Shown here: one piece after another, positions 23,829 through 53,646 of the stretch
Position numbering within the stretch: the first letter of the stretch is position 1
Layout of the letters: each line of letters opens with the position of its first letter
DNA from: Diadophis punctatus similis
Taxonomy: Eukaryota > Chordata > Lepidosauria > Squamata > Dipsadidae
DNA length: 64,000 bases
Assembly (NCBI GenBank): GCA_023053685.1
Contig: JALIGW010000002.1
Span: forward strand, 170,343,430-170,407,429
Direction of reading: 5' to 3'
Program-made: the position numbers and the translations under genes
Notes under the pieces: model-generated
The model's input: only the letters and a program-made list of their open reading frames with translations
The model's database searches: none
Told to the model about the DNA's origin: nothing

Positions 23829-26414
23829 TTTTTTTTTTTTTTTTTTTTTAATAAAAAGTTTTATTAGTACAAACTTACATAAGTGGTAACAAAATATTAA
23901 ATCCAAAGTACAAACATTTTTATTTCCCCCCCCCAGACCCACCCCCTTCCCTCCCCACCTCCCCCCCCCCCCCGGACTTCCCAGAGATAATACAGGGCAT
24001 AATAATAAGTTTAAATTGTTAATAAAAAGAAAAAGGAAAAAGGAAAAAAAGAACACTATTTTTAAAAAAACTTCAACTCCAAACTATACAGTACTAATAT
24101 ATCGCATTTGTATACAATAGTAAAGATACAAAAAAGAGAGAGAAAAAAAGAAAGAGAATAAAAAAAAAGAAAGAAAGAAAGAGAAAACTCTTTAACACTA
24201 CAAACAAACAAACCTCCTACCTCCTCCCTTCAGTCCTCTATCTTATACAAGGTAAGTGTTACATAAGTAATAACTAAATATAAAATACACAAATCTTAAA
24301 CTAATATTATTGACATTAGAAATAACCTCTAAGATAAAACTTAACTAAATGTTACATAAATAATCATCAAATATTAAATTTCATCATGATATTAATAAGA
24401 TAATATTATTCTAAATTAATTCGCTAACTTCAATAAACAAAAAAAGAAAATAAAAGAAGAATAAACAATAAACAAATCTTCAACAAACTATATATATCTA
24501 ATATTATCAACATTAAAAATAACCTCAAAATTATATAAAACTTAACTAAATATTGCATAAGTAATCATTAGATAGGGAAAAGATAAAATACAATCATATT
24601 AGTTTCTATCCATCCAATATATTTCAACATCACATTATTTTGTATCTTGATAGTTCATCTTTTAATAGTTCAATAAATTCAAATTTGTCAAGTCGTCTCC
24701 CGTCTGCTCCCAAACCTCCATCTCCTCTTCCCCAGCTATCTGATTCAGGCACTCCTTTTGGATTTTTGAGTCTATTTCTTTTTGATCCATCGAAGGTGGC
24801 TTCCCCTCCTCCTCCTCTTTTATTTTCATACACCCTTCTTCTGGAATCTTGGATATATCAGCCTTTAGAACATTGACATAAAATTCAGTAGCTTTTTTTA
24901 TCGTGTTGAGCCGGTATCTTTTTCCAGAAAATTTCACTGTTACTCCAACTGGTGCTTCCCATTTATATTGTAAATTTAATCTCTTAAATTCATCAATCAA
25001 AAAAGTATAGCTTTTCCTGGCTTTAAGCATTTTAGAGGGGATTTCTTTCCAAATCTTTAGTTCCTGACCATTCACCATAAGATTATTGTTAAACGTTGCT
25101 TGTATAATTCTGTTCCGTAGAGCTCTTGTGGTAAAATATATGACAATATCCCTTGGTAGATGCTTTTGTTTGGCGTACCACGAGTTGATTCTGTATGTTT
25201 TGTCGATTTGTGTAGCCAATTCCGCTTTAGAAATTCCAGACACCTGATCCAATATGTCAACCATCCTGCCTTTTAAATTTTCATATAATCCTTCTTTCAA
25301 ACCTCTAATCCTTATAGCAACTTCCATAGATCTGAACTGAGTCATTAAGACCTCTTTTTCAAAATTTGCAATGTCATTTTGGATTTTATCTATGTAATTC
25401 ACCGAAGTTGCCAAAGCTTGTTTATTTGTTTCAATACGTTCTGCCAAAACTTCAATATTTGTTGCTAAGCCTTTGCAAACCTCTAACACATCAAATCTTA
25501 GTTGTTGATTCATATTCTTCAAAGCAGCCTGCATCTTATGGTCTATCTCACTTATTTTCTGGTTAAATTCCAAAGTAAGTTCATGTTTCATAATCTTTAA
25601 ATTATTTAATAAGTTTTCAGGTGTCAAAAGCTGTGGAGGTGTTAGCTCAGTGTTAAGTTGCATTTTAGAAATATATCCAGATGAATAGTCATTTCTTTTA
25701 GTCAAAACAGTCTTTCCAAACTTTGAAGCCATTGGTGTTTCAAAAGAGTACAAAAAAGAAAGAAAGCCAGTTGCCTGATTAAAGTTCTTTCCAGTTTAAA
25801 AATCAGATAGTCTTTTATTATTGAAAATATTTCTATTATAACTTTAATCCAGAGTTAGGAGACAGAGAAAGAAAAAACCATTTTTCCAAGTTAAAAGTTT
25901 CCATAAGAGAGAGAGAAAGAAAAAAAAAAAAAAGCCTCTGGGGAAACGAAAGTCACTTTCACTTCTCAATCGCCATATTGTTACTCTGTTTCCTTTGTTC
26001 CCTTGCCGAAGTGAAAGCTTACCCAGGAGTTGAAAAAAAAAAAGAAGAAAAGAGGTTTCAGTACTTGCCCATCTCACGCCTGTTTCTCTCTGTCTGCTTC
26101 TATAGTTTAAATGTAGTTATAAATCCCATTTTTGAAGCAGCGGCTGGTCACTCCATCTAGCTCTGCAAAAGGCAGAGGTTTCCGGATCTTCGGAGCTGGA
26201 GACAGGCTGCATGGGGAGCTCTCCCTTCGCGCCCTGCAGATGGCTCCTAAGGCGCTGGGGGGGCTCTACCCCTCCTGTCAGGCTCTCATCTCTCCCCTTT
26301 GCCCGGGGAAGAGATTTTAAAGCCGCCAGACAGCTGTTCTGGCGGCTTTTAACAAAGATCGGAAAGGCATCCAACGAGGGATGTCTGCGATGAAGCGCTC
26401 CAAAACCGGAAGTC
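23829..26414 (-). mobile_element. Full-length ORF1-only L1-type element (HAL1-like)
   Basis: A 16-bp direct repeat CCTTCTTTTGTTTCTC borders the element exactly (23813-23828 and 26415-26430). It runs on the minus strand from a GC-rich 5' UTR (GACTTCCGGTTTTGGAGCGC) through an intact 363-residue ORF1 to a 3' UTR. The 3' UTR has a G-rich polypurine tract (23930-23985) and AATAAA followed by an A tail. At 2586 bp it has no room for the roughly 4-kb ORF2, and none of the 3' part reads as endonuclease or RT. The two duplicated borders show that it inserted in this form. A sister copy of its 3' end is at 40393. Confidence 0.88.
24662..25753 (-). CDS. L1 ORF1 protein (RNA-binding chaperone), intact 363 aa
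   Basis: ORF1p coats L1 RNA as a trimer. The N-terminal third (about residues 45-140) is heptad-rich and likely a coiled coil (QKISEIDHKMQAALKNMNQQ). It is followed by an RRM-like part starting at about 150 (AIRIRGLKEGL) and a C-terminal domain with PRDIVIYFTTRALRNRI and KARKSYTFLIDEFKRLNLQY. The last 50 residues are acidic and lysine-rich. Length is close to vertebrate ORF1p. No stop or frameshift interrupts it, which suggests a young copy. The start at Met 25753 is the first in frame. A later Met eight codons in is also possible. Confidence 0.85.
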   Translation of the reverse strand: MYSFETPMASKFGKTVLTKRNDYSSGYISKMQLNTELTPPQLLTPENLLNNLKIMKHELTLEFNQKISEIDHKMQAALKNMNQQLRFDVLEVCKGLATNIEVLAERIETNKQALATSVNYIDKIQNDIANFEKEVLMTQFRSMEVAIRIRGLKEGLYENLKGRMVDILDQVSGISKAELATQIDKTYRINSWYAKQKHLPRDIVIYFTTRALRNRIIQATFNNNLMVNGQELKIWKEIPSKMLKARKSYTFLIDEFKRLNLQYKWEAPVGVTVKFSGKRYRLNTIKKATEFYVNVLKADISKIPEEGCMKIKEEEEGKPPSMDQKEIDSKIQKECLNQIAGEEEMEVWEQTGDDLTNLNLLNY

Positions 26415-31995: not shown

Positions 31996-32266
<271 letters not shown>

Positions 32267-36082: not shown

Positions 36083-36348
36083 TGTCAGAGTTACGCAATA
36101 AATCAGAAGCTTCAGAAGATAACTGCATTTTGCTGATTCAAATAACTTCTTTATAAGTAGAATAAAACATTAACAATACCACACTTTGTTTCAGATCACA
36201 TGTTGAGATGTTTTCATACTGGAGTATAATGGTGGACAGCGTAAACCACGCCCTTCTTCTTGCTAAGTTTCTGGACATGCTTAAATAACACTTCAGCCCG
36301 ATTGGCTGACTCAATCACATGGCTCTCCCAGTCATGAATATTCCAACA
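36083..36348 (-). repeat. Copia 3' LTR
   Basis: 266 bp with TGTTGGAATA...CTCTGACA ends on the element strand. It differs from the 5' LTR at 36123 (G/C region of TTCAGAAG versus TTCACAAG) and near 36281 (GCTTAAAT versus GCTCAAAT). The pol frame ends inside it. Confidence 0.95.
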
Positions 36349-38512
36349 CTCCTCCCTTCATTACTGGGAGAGACATCAAACCTATTGGATTTAAACATTT
36401 CCTATAATGGACGCCACCCAATGGTTTGGTCATCATGTCTGCTAAATTATCCTCTGAAGAACAATGATGTAAACTTATCAATTTTTCTTTTACAGCTTCC
36501 CTGACATTACAATACTTAATGTCCACATGTTTACTTCTGTTCTTCACTCTGTCACCTGTTGCCATTTTTATACAAGCAGCATTATCTTCATAAATAGTTA
36601 CAGCTTCATTTACATTTAAATCTTGTAACAACTGTACATACCAAACTACTTCAGAACATAACTCAGACAATGCAATAAACTCTGCTTCAGCAGTTGAAAT
36701 AGCAACCGTTGTTTGTTTTCTGGACTTCCAACCAATTAAAGCCCCTCCAAACATTATTACAATTCCAGAATTAGACTTTCTGGTTTTTACATCATTTGCA
36801 TAATCACTATCAACATAACATTTCAATTTTAATTCTTCAGTGACCTGTATTTGAAGACCTAAATTCACAGTTCCCTTCAAATACCTGAGAATTCTTTTCA
36901 CACCCATCCAATGCAACTTTGTAGGTGTAGCAGTAAAGCGACTTAAGATGCTCACTGCACAAGCTATGTCTGGTCTGGACCACTGTGACAGATATAACAG
37001 ACTCCCTATTGCAGAGTGATATATCTCCTGATCACAGGCTTCACTTTTGTCCTCACCCAAACTATTGTAAAAATCTGTGCTCATAGGTGTAGGAGCAATA
37101 TTACAATCTTTCATGTTATACTTCTCTAATAATTGTTCAATTTTTCTCCTTTGACTGAGAATATAACCCTTTTCAGTTTTTTGTATCTCTACACCGAGAT
37201 AATTCTTTATTTCTCCCAAATTCTTTAATTCAAATTTCTTTTCTAACTTATTAGCAAATTCTTTAACTTGTGATGCATCCTTTGCAATGAAACAAAGATC
37301 ATCCACAAATGCTAATAATAGACAATTCCCACCTTGTAACTTTCCAGTGTATATGCAACCATCAGCTTTGCAACTCTTGAACCCAAGACCTTTCAATGCA
37401 GTATCAAGACAGATATTCCAATTTCTGGCTGACTGCTTCAGCCCATAAATGGCCTTGTTCAATTTATACACCATGTTAGGCTTTTTACTTTCATACCCTG
37501 GCGCTTGAACCATATAAATTTCTTCCTCTAATTCAGCATTGAGAAATGCAGTGGTTATATCAAAATGCCAAATTCTATGCCTGTATGCTGATGCTAATGC
37601 CAGTGCTAGTCTTATGCTCTCACCTTTTACAGTTGGCGCGAACACCTCATCATAGTGCACATTTTTTAATTGAGAAAAACCTTGTGCCACCAATCTTGCC
37701 TTATACTGTACTTCATTATTGGGTAATACTTTTTTCTTGTATACCCACTTACATCCTACAGCTTTCGTACCCTGTGGCAAAGTCATAGATGTGAACACTT
37801 CATGATCGCCCATGGATTTCATCTCTTTATCCATGGCTTCCTTCCACTTTTCTTGTTCAACTTTTGGTAATGCCAATACTTCCTTATAGTTTCTTGGCTC
37901 ATACCACACATTACACACTTTAACTTTACTGGCAGAATACCTGTCTGGCGGAACCCCTCTGTTCCTACGCTCTGACCTACGTGGCATTGCCTGTACTTGT
38001 GTTTCAAGCTTTTCTGTCTTCATATCTTGTTCAGACTCTCCTCCCTGAACATAGACACCTTCAGTAAATGATTCACCATCATTACATGAGTTATTGTCAC
38101 TAAGTGGATCACCGTCGCTAAGTGGATCACCGTCACTAAGTGAGACATTTTCAGAATTTGCATCAATTCTGTTCCAATTTTGTTCTGCAAAACTAGCAGA
38201 CCTTGAAATCACTATCCTTTTACTTCCATCGCTAAAGCGATACCCTTTTGAGCCTGGCTCATAGCCCACAAATCTGAGCTTTCTAGCCTTTTGTTGTCCC
38301 TTTCTTCTGATTGCCTTTGGAATATGTACCCAAGCAGTACTTCCAAATATTTTTAAATGTGCTAGAGAAGGCTTTCTCCCATATAGCATTGCATATGGAG
38401 TATTATTGATGGATGAACTCCACAACCTATTTACTAAATAATTGGCAGTCAGTATGGCTTCACCCCAATATGACCTGCTCATACCAGAATCCTCCAGTAA
38501 TGAGTCTTTCAT
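36332..38512 (-). pseudogene. Copia integrase C-terminus, reverse transcriptase and RNase H (726 aa)
   Basis: In frame with the upstream part. It opens with the end of integrase (SYWGEAILTANYLVNRL). The RT starts around residue 250 (KARLVAQGFSQ; Asp318 in HFDITTAFLNAELEEEIYM; catalytic FVDD at 402-405). RNase H has Asp568 (CYVDSDYAN), Glu609 (TAEAEFIALSE) and Asp643 (YEDNAACIKM). The frame ends at TGA in the 3' LTR. The catalytic residues are all present, so only the upstream stop is an obvious defect. An 18-nt tandem repeat codes LSDGDP units at about residues 125-137. Confidence 0.92.
36349..36362 (-). promoter_or_regulatory. Copia polypurine tract
   Basis: GAAGGGAGGAG on the element strand directly before the 3' LTR, the expected plus-strand primer. 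It overlaps the last codons of pol. Confidence 0.75.
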
Positions 38513-38515
38513 TGT

Positions 38516-40312
38516 TTACAAAACACCATTCCTCCTTTCAGCCACTCCGTTCTCCCCCGGTGTGTAAGGATTTGTGCGCCTGTGTCTTATTCCCAATTGT
38601 CTCAACCATTGTTGAAAATTTGTTGACATAAATTCAGAACCTCTGTCAGTTTGCAACTGACATACCTGTTGTTTATACCTTCTCTCTACAAAACTTAACC
38701 ATTGCTTAAATTGCTGTAGCACCTCTGTTTTACTCTTAAGTAAGTAGCAAAACCCAAACCTGCTGTAGTCATCCACAATGACCAGCGCATACTTTGCTCC
38801 TCCCAAACTGGCTTGCATAGGCCCAATTAAATCAGCATGCACCAGTTCTAGAGCTTTTGTGGTTTGTCTTGTGCTAAACTTGCTAACTGGGAATGCTTTG
38901 GATTTCGATGCTTTGCATACTGCACAATCCAAATATGCCTTACATCCCTTCAAATCTAATCCTTCTGCAAATTCTTTCATTTGTTGAACAACCTTAAAAT
39001 TAGCATGACCAAGTCGTCTGTGCAGAAGATGAACACACGAATTGTGTTCTGCTACATTTTTAAATATCTGGGAACAATGTGGGACCTTTTGTCCCTGCAA
39101 TACATAAAGATTATCCTCTTTTATGCCCTGTACACAAACATTCCCATTTCTTTGGATGATACACTTCCCATTAACAAATGTGGTTTCATAACCTTGCTTG
39201 TCTAAACTAGACACACTTAACAAATTATGTTCCATTTCAGGTACACATAACACATCAGTAAACCTGGATTCCAAATATGGAATTTGCACATCACCTCTTC
39301 CAAAGATTTTAGCCTTTTGGCCATTGGCTAAGGCTACTTCTTCATGGTTTCCTGGGAAAAATCTGGAAAATAAGTCAGAATTATTAACAATTGTTTGACT
39401 AGCCCCACTGTCAATCAACCATTTGTCTCTATTGTTATTATAACAAACTTTTGCAACTGCAATCTGTCCTTGCAAATAATGTCTCTTGTCTTGCACATTT
39501 CTTCTCTGTGCACAGCTTTTCTGCAGATGATTGGTTTCTCCACAAATGAAACACGCTTTCTTAACTTGCTTGAAGAATTGTTGCTGTGTAACTTGATCTC
39601 TCCTGCCTCTGCTTTCCTCTTGTCTGCAGACACCTCGGCTGTTGCTAGAGATAGGCAGCCTGTGGAAAATTTTGCTGGAGACTTGCTGTAAGTTTCCACT
39701 GTACTCCTTGTTGGGCTCCCGCCTGTGGAATTTTCCATCAGCATGGCTGAAAATCCTTTTCTCATATTCATTCAATAAACACGATTTCAAAGCCTCCAAA
39801 TTCAAATCTGCTTCTGGCTTACTTTCAAAAATAGCTGATACAGTCTCCCAGCTCTGATCCAAACTATTTAACACTAATAAAACTTTTTGGGACTCTGGAA
39901 ACTTTACTCCACGTTGCTCCAATTCTAGAAAATTAGACTGCATTTTCATTAAATGATCTTCCATAGAATCTCCTGTCTGCAAACTCATTCTGAAAAGCTT
40001 TCTTGAAAATTGGACCACATTACACGCAGAAACATTGACATGTACTGCTTTCAATTTCTGCCATATTTCTTTTGCAGACTTTAATTCAGCTACATTTAAG
40101 AATTGATCATCCCCCAGACTTAAAAGAAGATAAGCCATAGCTTTGTCATGAGCCTTTTGATCTGCTGCTCCAAGCACTTGTGGGGGGTCTGCTACGATGT
40201 CCCATAATTCTTTTGCTTTCAAAAAACATTCCATTTTTGCAGCCCAAATTAAATAATTTTTCTTCCCCAATTTGGGTATTGGACTGTCTTTAAATTCCAT
40301 AGCAGCAGCCAT
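38516..40312 (-). pseudogene. Copia gag-protease-integrase part of pol (598 aa to premature stop)
   Basis: Residues 1-250 are a copia-type Gag (start KLGKKNYLIWAAKMECFLKA). A CCHC zinc knuckle follows (Cys254-Cys267, CFICGETNHLQKSC), then the protease active site DSGA at 301, and a GAG-pre-integrase HH-CC motif from HRRLGH at 431. The integrase core has Asp494 (VHADLIG), Asp556 (TDRGSEF) and Glu592 (NGVAERRN). A TAA comes six codons after Glu592. The downstream ORF continues in the same frame, so a single nonsense change separates them. The start is the first Met, preceded by 5' leader. Confidence 0.92.
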
Positions 40313-40392
40313 CCTGCTTTACTTTTCTTCTCTGCCTGTTCCTTTAACAACACAGACAGCTTCTTATCAGCTTTAAATTACAATGCAGTTTT

Positions 40393-51835: not shown

Positions 51836-52446
51836 CTGAGTACAATCTGAATCAAACAGATCAGAGATTGAAAAGGAAGCTCCAGAAGCATATTTTGAGA
51901 AGGGTTTTAAGAGCCATGAGTTTTTTAATTACTCCATAGAAAAACATTTCTGTATTTGTGGCTATCTGAAATAAGGTAGGCCATGCCTAGGGAAATATTC
52001 TTTCTTATATTAGCTCTTCAGTTTTGTTTTTTGCTTAATATTTTTTTCTTCCCCCCCCTTGATTCCTCATCTTATTTTTTGTTATGATTTCCATGCTACT
52101 TACCCACAGACCTTGTATAAGTCTATAAAGGGACCCTAACTTCTGCCTTTGCCTCCACACTGTCAATAAACCAATTTGTGCTTCAGTGTAATGTGTCCTG
52201 GTCTCCAGTTTAAACAAATATTCCTTGCTACAAACCTGCTTCTTTTGCAGAAATGTAAAACTATTTGGAACAGGCAGACTGTGCTCAGGTACCATCCACC
52301 TACAGGCTCTCCATCTTGTCATGTTTCAGCCTCAATTGGCCTTCATAATTCAGATTCCAGTTTATGACCTGCACAGCCTCTCTCATTTCAGAAGTCACAG
52401 TGAAAAACAGCTGGGTGTTATCAGTCTTTTGATTGTTGCTTTATGT

Positions 52447-53090
52447 CAGTCCTTCTCAAATAGTGGGGCGCCCCCCCTGAGGGTACTCAGAGCAATGCCA
52501 GGGAACATGTGTGGTCCCTCTCGATTGAATCCCCTGGACGGGGAGTGTTTTCCCAGTTGCACACTGCTCCGAGCCCAGAAGAGAAGGCAGCCAGGCAGGG
52601 CGGGGCAGCTGCGTGGGTTCTTGTTGTTCTCGGCGGGTGTCACGGTAGTCATGAACGGTGTGGCAAACCTGCTGCTGGACAAGGAGGAGCATCCTCTGCA
52701 ACTGGGTGAAAGCTTCGAACGGCACCCTAAAGCCTCCTTCCACACCATTCGCTGTGAGTGCCCGACAGAGGTGGCGCTTATGGGCCAGGCCAGCGACCCC
52801 AAAACATCGGCTTGATTAAGCTGGCCTGGCCCCATGTCAAAAGAGGGCCCTAACCACGGTAGCCATGCTGCCTAACCGAAAACAGGTTCCACTGAGTTCA
52901 GCGTGACTTACTCCCAGGTAAGTGGGTAGATCAGCCTTCCCCAGCCAATAGTTTGCTTGCAGCTTATAATAAGTAAAATAATAAATATTAACACTAAAAT
53001 TCCATTGGGGCCCAGATTGGAGAGTTGGGGGGGCGCGAAATGTTTACTTCTTCCTGGGGGGGCATAACAGAAAATAATTGAGAAGCACTG
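52447..53090. mobile_element. hAT element carrying an EAF1 gene fragment
   Basis: Ends CAGTCCTTCTCAAATAGTGG and AATTGAGAAGCACTG are imperfect inverted repeats. The perfect 8-bp duplication CTTTATGT lies at 52439-52446 and 53091-53098. The 644-bp interior holds GC-rich sequence with a GC box (GGGCGGGGC near 52598), an EAF1-like first coding exon (52651-52753), its splice donor, and unrelated sequence beyond. No transposase. Confidence 0.85.
52651..52753 (+). pseudogene. Captured EAF1 exon 1 coding segment
   Basis: From ATG the frame reads [20 protein letters not shown] and then [14 protein letters not shown], followed by one T and GTGAGT, a consensus splice donor. This is the N-terminus of EAF1, an ELL-associated transcription elongation factor; EAF2 fits less well. 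Only this exon is present and its 103 nt end in mid-codon at the donor, so no full protein can be made here. Presence of the donor and flanking sequence argues for capture from genomic DNA, not from mRNA. No frameshift or stop lies in the exon. Several substitutions relative to the conserved family suggest relaxed selection. Confidence 0.82.
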
Positions 53091-53646
53091 CTTTATGTGA
53101 AGCTTCTGATGACTACTTCAACATTTCATATAGTGGTACAGAGTGTTAGGAAAAAGATAGTTTCCCAATGGACACCCCAGAGTATAACCACATGGTTCAC
53201 AATACAGATATTTCAAACATTCTGAGAACATTCTGCCAAGTAGAGAAAATTCACTATAGAAGAATGATTCCAATCTTCATTTCACAATTCAGAAGGATGT
53301 TGTGGTCAAGATTTTTTTTAATTTATTTATTAAAATTTCTATGTCGCCCAACTCCCAGAGGGAGTCTAGGCAGCTAACAACAGGTATAGAAAGAAACAAT
53401 CAATAAAAGTAATTTAAAAACATGATAAAAATACTATCAGGTAAGTAGGTATCACAAAAATGGCCAGGGATCCAGTAACATCAATAAAGTTGTACTTTTT
53501 CTGTCTCTACCACAAGAGGTCATCTATCAAAGTAAGAAGAATGATTCAGCCGCCAAACCCGACTAAAATCAGAAAAAATATGTATTTTATTTATATCCTG
53601 CTTTATTATTTTTTTAATGCACGCAAGGCGGTAAACATATCTAATA

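Follow-up and report, generated by a model that had tools for sequence, protein, structure and literature searches.

The window analysed here, a stretch of 64,000 nucleotides on contig C112 of the Diadophis punctatus similis genome, contains at positions 52447–53090 a 644-bp element with hAT ends. Its inverted ends, CAGTCCTTCTCAAATA and TAATTGAGAAGCACTG, form 16-bp terminal inverted repeats (TIRs) that are 88% complementary, and a perfect 8-bp target-site duplication (TSD), CTTTATGT, which fits nnnTAnnn, is present on both sides (52439–52446 and 53091–53098), as had been claimed in the original prediction of hAT ends with a perfect duplication. The GC content reaches 0.52–0.64 across the left two thirds of the element, against 0.41–0.48 immediately outside. 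Read on the forward strand, the element begins with a hAT left end (52447–52510, equivalent to consensus positions 1 to about 84, with a boundary accurate to about 2 bases) that recurs in relatives lacking EAF1, followed by a captured EAF1 5′ flank and 5′ UTR (52511–52650; GC-rich, and CpG-rich in the consensus), EAF1 coding exon 1 (52651–52753), the splice donor GTGAGT of EAF1 intron 1 (52754–52759) and the start of that intron (52760–52775). A segment without a native counterpart in this species (52776–52893) then precedes three further blocks of intron 1 (52894–52946, 52947–53001 and 53000–53018), and the element closes with a hAT right end (53019–53090), likewise common to relatives without EAF1. 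The element consensus, built from 28 copies, is 667 bp long. Elsewhere in the window, two long open frames that adjoin each other at 36332–40318 on the minus strand (600 and 727 codons) resemble by eye a copia-type LTR retrotransposon polyprotein, a 377-codon open frame at 24662–25795, also on the minus strand, resembles by eye a LINE ORF1-type protein, and a long GATA tetranucleotide array of 66 units occupies 31997–32264.

The EAF1 reading frame starts with an ATG at 52651, runs for 34 codons and takes in one base of codon 35 (position 52753), directly followed by GTGAGT. It matches residues 1–34 of human EAF1 (7okx_O, E=1e-11) and is identical to snake EAF1 (P0002) at 33 of 34 residues, the sole difference being P7L, which agrees with the earlier description of an open EAF1-like N-terminus ending exactly at T/GTGAGT; the best-scoring named proteins for this exon are the EAF1 proteins of the snakes Ahaetulla and Crotalus. 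Beyond exon 1, spliced EAF1 proteins read ...FHTIRYDF..., whereas reading through the donor gives ...FHTIRCE... in the predicted protein P0121 of Cairina moschata as well as in P0001, P0014 and others, and T is therefore the last base of the native exon, in front of GTGAG, just as it is in the element. A Pfam scan of the 35-residue exon piece and the surrounding open frame returned no family, a search of the window detected no further convincing EAF1 exons, and a search of a phage collection gave no match. Two annotated proteins with unusual EAF1 structures were also encountered. P0120 (63 aa) from Laticauda laticaudata contains EAF1 exon 1 with Pro-7, a read-through of the donor and unrelated residues at its end, and may represent read-through at the native locus or another copy, while in P0017 from Taeniopygia guttata EAF1 exons are joined to maturin (Pfam PF15167 and PF09816), likely through read-through or a mistake in annotation.

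The native EAF1 gene, which has several exons, is located on a different contig (C386) of the same 1.78-Gb genome. Its ATG lies at C386:472517, and five coding blocks within a 24.8-kb stretch correspond to residues 1–240 of the 255-aa EAF1 of Crotalus. In one search a TAA fell inside the matched stretch of one coding block; the tblastn block at that exon is shorter, and the TAA was therefore taken as lying in the flanking intron. Four blocks of the element consensus align with this locus by BLAST, all collinear and at 94–100% identity, namely positions 85–349, which span the 5′ flank, 5′ UTR, exon 1, donor and start of intron 1 (249/266), and the intronic positions 470–522 (52/53, or 98%), 523–577 (55/55, or 100%) and 576–594 (19/19). 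Block coordinates were taken from BLAST, as the global alignment of consensus and native sequence misplaced part of the intron. The GC-rich, promoter-like sequence noted earlier upstream of the exon proved to be the native EAF1 5′ flank and UTR, and the comparison with the species' own locus, which had been suggested as a check, yielded matches to both exon 1 and intron 1. Because the 5′ flank, the donor and pieces of intron 1 align collinearly to the native gene, the EAF1 DNA in the element is a DNA-level capture and not a retrocopy. The presence of these collinear native blocks inside hAT ends shows that a hAT captured genomic DNA, as had been proposed. Exons inside repeats often stem from retrocopies, and on that general ground a processed copy of EAF1 mRNA carried inside a hAT had to be weighed; yet the 5′ flank, the donor and blocks of intron 1 are all retained in the element, and the searches gave no match to exon 2 or any later exon, so that this origin was rejected on the intron 1 blocks and is left with a practically negligible probability.

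The capture was not a simple copy of one contiguous tract. Consensus positions 350–469 (about 118 bp in the window copy) have no counterpart at the native locus, and the element in turn lacks two stretches of native sequence that lie between the blocks (178 and 99 bp), implying that the capture was discontinuous or that one of the two loci changed later. The extra segment at 52776–52893 is probably ancestral EAF1 intron 1 that was lost from the native gene of this species, because P0124, a protein with the native P7, reads the same as the consensus from position 350 onward in a by-eye, shifted-frame comparison; P0124 could instead be an early copy of the element. The terminal portions of the consensus (1–84 and 595–667) have no match in the 24.8-kb native stretch at E<=1, and the lack of any hAT-end match near native EAF1 within this searched stretch argues against a simple end bypass. 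At the junctions, the parent and native sequences share GC on the left and C on the right, as judged from the sequences of relatives and a CpG-adjusted consensus, which amounts to 1–2 bp of microhomology.

Residue differences between the two loci bear on the history of the capture. Native EAF1 in this snake reads MNGLANP...HPKSSFHTIR, with L4, P7 and S28, whereas the element has V4 and A28, as in Ahaetulla and Crotalus. Since V4 and A28 represent the state of other snakes, the native gene has probably changed since the capture. The same mismatch might be explained if the hybrid had formed in another lineage and reached this snake by horizontal transfer, a scenario with which the sharing of L7 and flanking residues by P0119 (from a Logan contig) is also compatible. 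However, V4 and A28 occur in the snakes Ahaetulla and Crotalus, so that age together with later change of the native gene suffices, and horizontal transfer is considered unlikely.

The element belongs to a large family. A pattern comprising the end of exon 1 and the donor, with at most two mismatches, occurs at 1,147 places genome-wide (571 and 576), compared with none for the reversed-pattern control; the native gene has one mismatch to the pattern and should be one of these places. In a DNA search with the element, the best 40 of 2,581 candidates were scored, and all 40 matched at 89% or above. These 40 copies were ordered by their resemblance to the window copy; 24 of them have a perfect TSD and 33 a TSD with at most one mismatch, against 0/40 in a shifted control. 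Of these 33 TSDs, 31 have T as the fourth base and 32 have A as the fifth. A second, positional sample consisted of 30 copies that were the first exact matches on C1 (an exact 31-mer was required), of which 28 have both hAT ends, with a perfect TSD in 25/28 and at most one mismatch in 28/28. The sampled copies lie at dispersed sites, each with a distinct 8-bp duplication. The full element is hence repeated many times (1,147 junction places; both ends in 28/30 positional copies), in accordance with the copy-number check that had been put forward. These data also bear on the possibility that the window holds the first exon of the native EAF1 gene, or a local duplicate of it, with flanks that resemble hAT ends by chance, for which the intact and open exon 1 and donor might speak. 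The native gene with further exons, however, resides on C386, shows about 6% divergence in the main block when compared with the element consensus and has no hAT-end matches in the 24.8 kb searched, and the positional copies show both ends and near-perfect TSDs at the frequencies given above. Based on the alignment to the C386 locus and the TSDs of the positional copies, the native-gene or local-duplication reading was rejected and deserves next to no credence.

Sequences with the same ends but without EAF1 provide information on the parental transposon. A genome-wide pattern search for right ends without adjoining EAF1 intron returned 46 places (control 0), and eight stretches were fetched from these places, four of which are complete (L082, L085, L086 and L087). 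L082, L085 and L086 (558–585 bp) share the ends of the element, are flanked by perfect TSDs and lack EAF1; each contains an ORF of roughly 130 aa that encodes a BED-like zinc finger, its Pfam matches being below the cut-off. No left end was found in the L080 and L083 stretches and no convincing one for L088, and the L081 and L084 stretches stopped short of the right end, with the left end present in L081. When the BED-like ORF (from L080) was used as a query, all 150 scored matches among 1,675 candidates were at 90% or above. The searches turned up no intact transposase; open frames among the listed 150 BED-ORF matches reach at most 233 aa. In L088, the same right end lies beside a C-terminal ORF that looks like the hAT dimerisation region (PF05699 at E=0.01, short of the cut-off). 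An NCBIfam match of this ORF was also below the cut-off and was taken as chance, and searches of solved structures with the BED-like and C-terminal ORFs returned nothing useful. As a separate observation, the sister family of short hATs (L082, L085, L086) keeps the BED-like N-terminal transposase piece open in many scored copies, for which young age is the simple answer. L087 (C1:157845500–157846270) is 687 bp long and shares the hAT ends; it has a perfect TSD (CCCTAAGG) but an interior unlike the others, possibly a second captured fragment; the letters at its right junction (CTCTCC followed by TCAGCCCT) are alike in three of the 46 right-end places, L087 included.

Helitrons insert without TSDs and lack TIRs, and a Helitron identity was rejected on the presence of both. 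The 8-bp TSDs and short TIRs are those of hAT elements, and the TSD form nnnTAnnn corresponds to the Buster consensus (PMC3517528), so that the element is classed, by its TSD, as a Buster-type hAT. It further resembles the Buster hATs described in the consulted parts of PMC3517528 and PMC3606216 in the BED-like zinc finger of its same-end relatives and differs from them in that its interior is host DNA and no intact transposase was seen. The characteristics of a Pack-hAT are all present, including host sequence between both TIR ends, a parent copy elsewhere with no hAT-end match in the 24.8 kb searched, retained intron and flank, as is not the case for a retrocopy, and multiple copies with distinct TSDs.

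To describe the state of the copies, 70 elements were extracted and 64 of 600–700 bp were analysed, six being left out for length; the samples favour younger copies. An open, in-frame exon 1 is present in 58/64 copies, the donor GTGAGT is intact in 62/64, and codon 7 encodes Leu in 63/64 and Met in one. In addition to T/GTGAGT, the element carries a second donor-like sequence, CAG/GTAAGT, in intron 1 block 2 (52915–52923, with GT at 52918), which is intact in 49/64 copies and closer to the consensus donor than the GTAAGA of the native version. Outside CpG sites, the copies differ from the consensus by a median of 1.9% (2.4% for 26 positional copies), and by region 1.3–5.8% of non-CpG sites have changed, with the hAT left end highest and the intron part lowest. 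At a squamate neutral rate of about 1–2 per billion sites per year, a general figure rather than one measured here, 2% divergence would be on the order of 10–20 million years. CpG sites, by region, have changed at 13–26%; in the captured GC-rich part, 1,170 of 1,792 CpG cells are kept, 294 have become TG and 274 CA. Such CpG decay is a signature of germline methylation and suggests silencing in the germline, with most copies probably methylated and silent. Raw counts of exon changes (48 non-synonymous and 34 synonymous, compared with an expected ratio of 2.32) contain fewer amino-acid changes than expected and hinted at selection on exon 1, but this was dropped after each change was counted once (37 non-synonymous and 20 synonymous, P=0.13), a test that gave no significant coding constraint.

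These patterns are relevant to whether the cargo does anything in its host. On one reading the insert is an inert passenger that has been amplified through the hAT ends and methylated and has never served as a promoter or first exon. The excess of change at CpG sites over other sites, the TG and CA products in the captured GC-rich part and the lack of significant coding constraint all agree with this, as does the result that no annotated snake protein with the Leu-7 exon spliced to another gene was returned (candidate lengths 30–161 and 114–362 aa), the Laticauda protein having Pro-7 and reading through the donor. Against it stand the intact donor and open exon in most copies, though young age alone accounts for both, and the NUBPL precedent from bats, in which such cargo can work (PMC4778049). 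Overall, the inert state appears rather probable. The use of copies as chimeric first exons is nevertheless plausible. It is possible, though less likely than not, that some sense insertions act as alternative promoters in this snake and give rise to N-terminally altered proteins, a few of them carrying the EAF1 N-terminus as an in-frame (phase 1) fusion, in which case the family would offer more than 1,000 ready-made first exons as a cut-and-paste counterpart of the bat NUBPL Helitron.

Several known systems are close to the element. The animal Pack-TIRs, including Pack-hATs (Tan et al. 2021, PMC8277862), likewise have TIR ends around host DNA and a parent locus elsewhere; their multicopy members also have distinct TSDs, and the multicopy cases there lie far from the parent. 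The original prediction regarded Pack-type capture as much less well described for vertebrate hATs than for plant Mutator elements. Single-copy Pack-hATs are in fact not rare in animals, hATs making up 208 of 370 animal Pack-TIRs (PMC8277862), and the view holds for multicopy ones, which are rare. Only four multicopy Pack-TIRs (1.4%; three in frog and one in alligator) are given for animal reference genomes in the parts of that source used here, among the reported cases being a frog CAPSL 5′ UTR Pack-TIR on three chromosomes, while the fly Ssk-FB4 family has four copies with the upstream region and most of the gene. Exonic sequence has been captured by 13.4% of animal Pack-TIRs (PMC8277862). 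Unlike the Pack-TIRs described there, the present family occupies more than 1,100 places and combines 5′ flank, coding exon and donor, and its amplification far exceeds that of the multicopy animal Pack-TIRs in that account. Plant Pack-MULEs, as summarised in PMC8277862, are similarly TIR elements with duplicated host sequence, part of them multicopy by transposition, but belong to another transposon superfamily and another kingdom. In HelibatN3 of Myotis bats, the NUBPL promoter is combined with six codons and a donor, and its exon trapping has been shown in HeLa cells; Helitrons of M. lucifugus have taken up the promoters of 15 genes and multiplied them to 4,690 copies (PMC4778049). The snake element resembles HelibatN3, as far as it is described in the portions consulted, in that the promoter region, a short N-terminal coding piece and the donor of one host gene have been amplified together, and may work in the same way. 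In contrast to HelibatN3 (PMC4778049), it is a cut-and-paste hAT with TIRs and 8-bp TSDs and contains 34 codons instead of six. The element is thus built and multiplied as a Pack-hAT and laid out like HelibatN3. No EAF1-carrying hAT was reported in the literature searched, the repeat libraries Repbase and Dfam lying outside that search.

Taken as a joint explanation that includes its inferred steps, we consider with high confidence that the element is one of more than 1,000 copies of a non-autonomous Buster-type Pack-hAT holding DNA from the 5′ end of EAF1. EAF1 DNA would have replaced the transposase interior through template switching during repair or replication, with jumps inside intron 1; for multicopy Pack-TIRs, template switching at replication forks together with transposition has been proposed (PMC8277862). 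A single hybrid with P7L would then have been the source of the sampled copies, with a hAT transposase acting in trans to spread it, and a sense copy located in a gene or upstream of one could have its EAF1 exon 1 spliced to the next acceptor and thereby act as an exon trap.

In the literature compared here, mass amplification of a host promoter together with a first coding piece is reported for Helitrons, and animal Pack-TIRs are nearly all single-copy (PMC8277862, in the parts considered). The discontinuous collinear blocks and the 1–2 bp of end microhomology make the element a suitable case for asking how a TIR transposon captures DNA. Moreover, with more than 1,100 places, the family amounts to a thousand replicates within one genome of how often a mobile promoter with a donor creates new transcripts.
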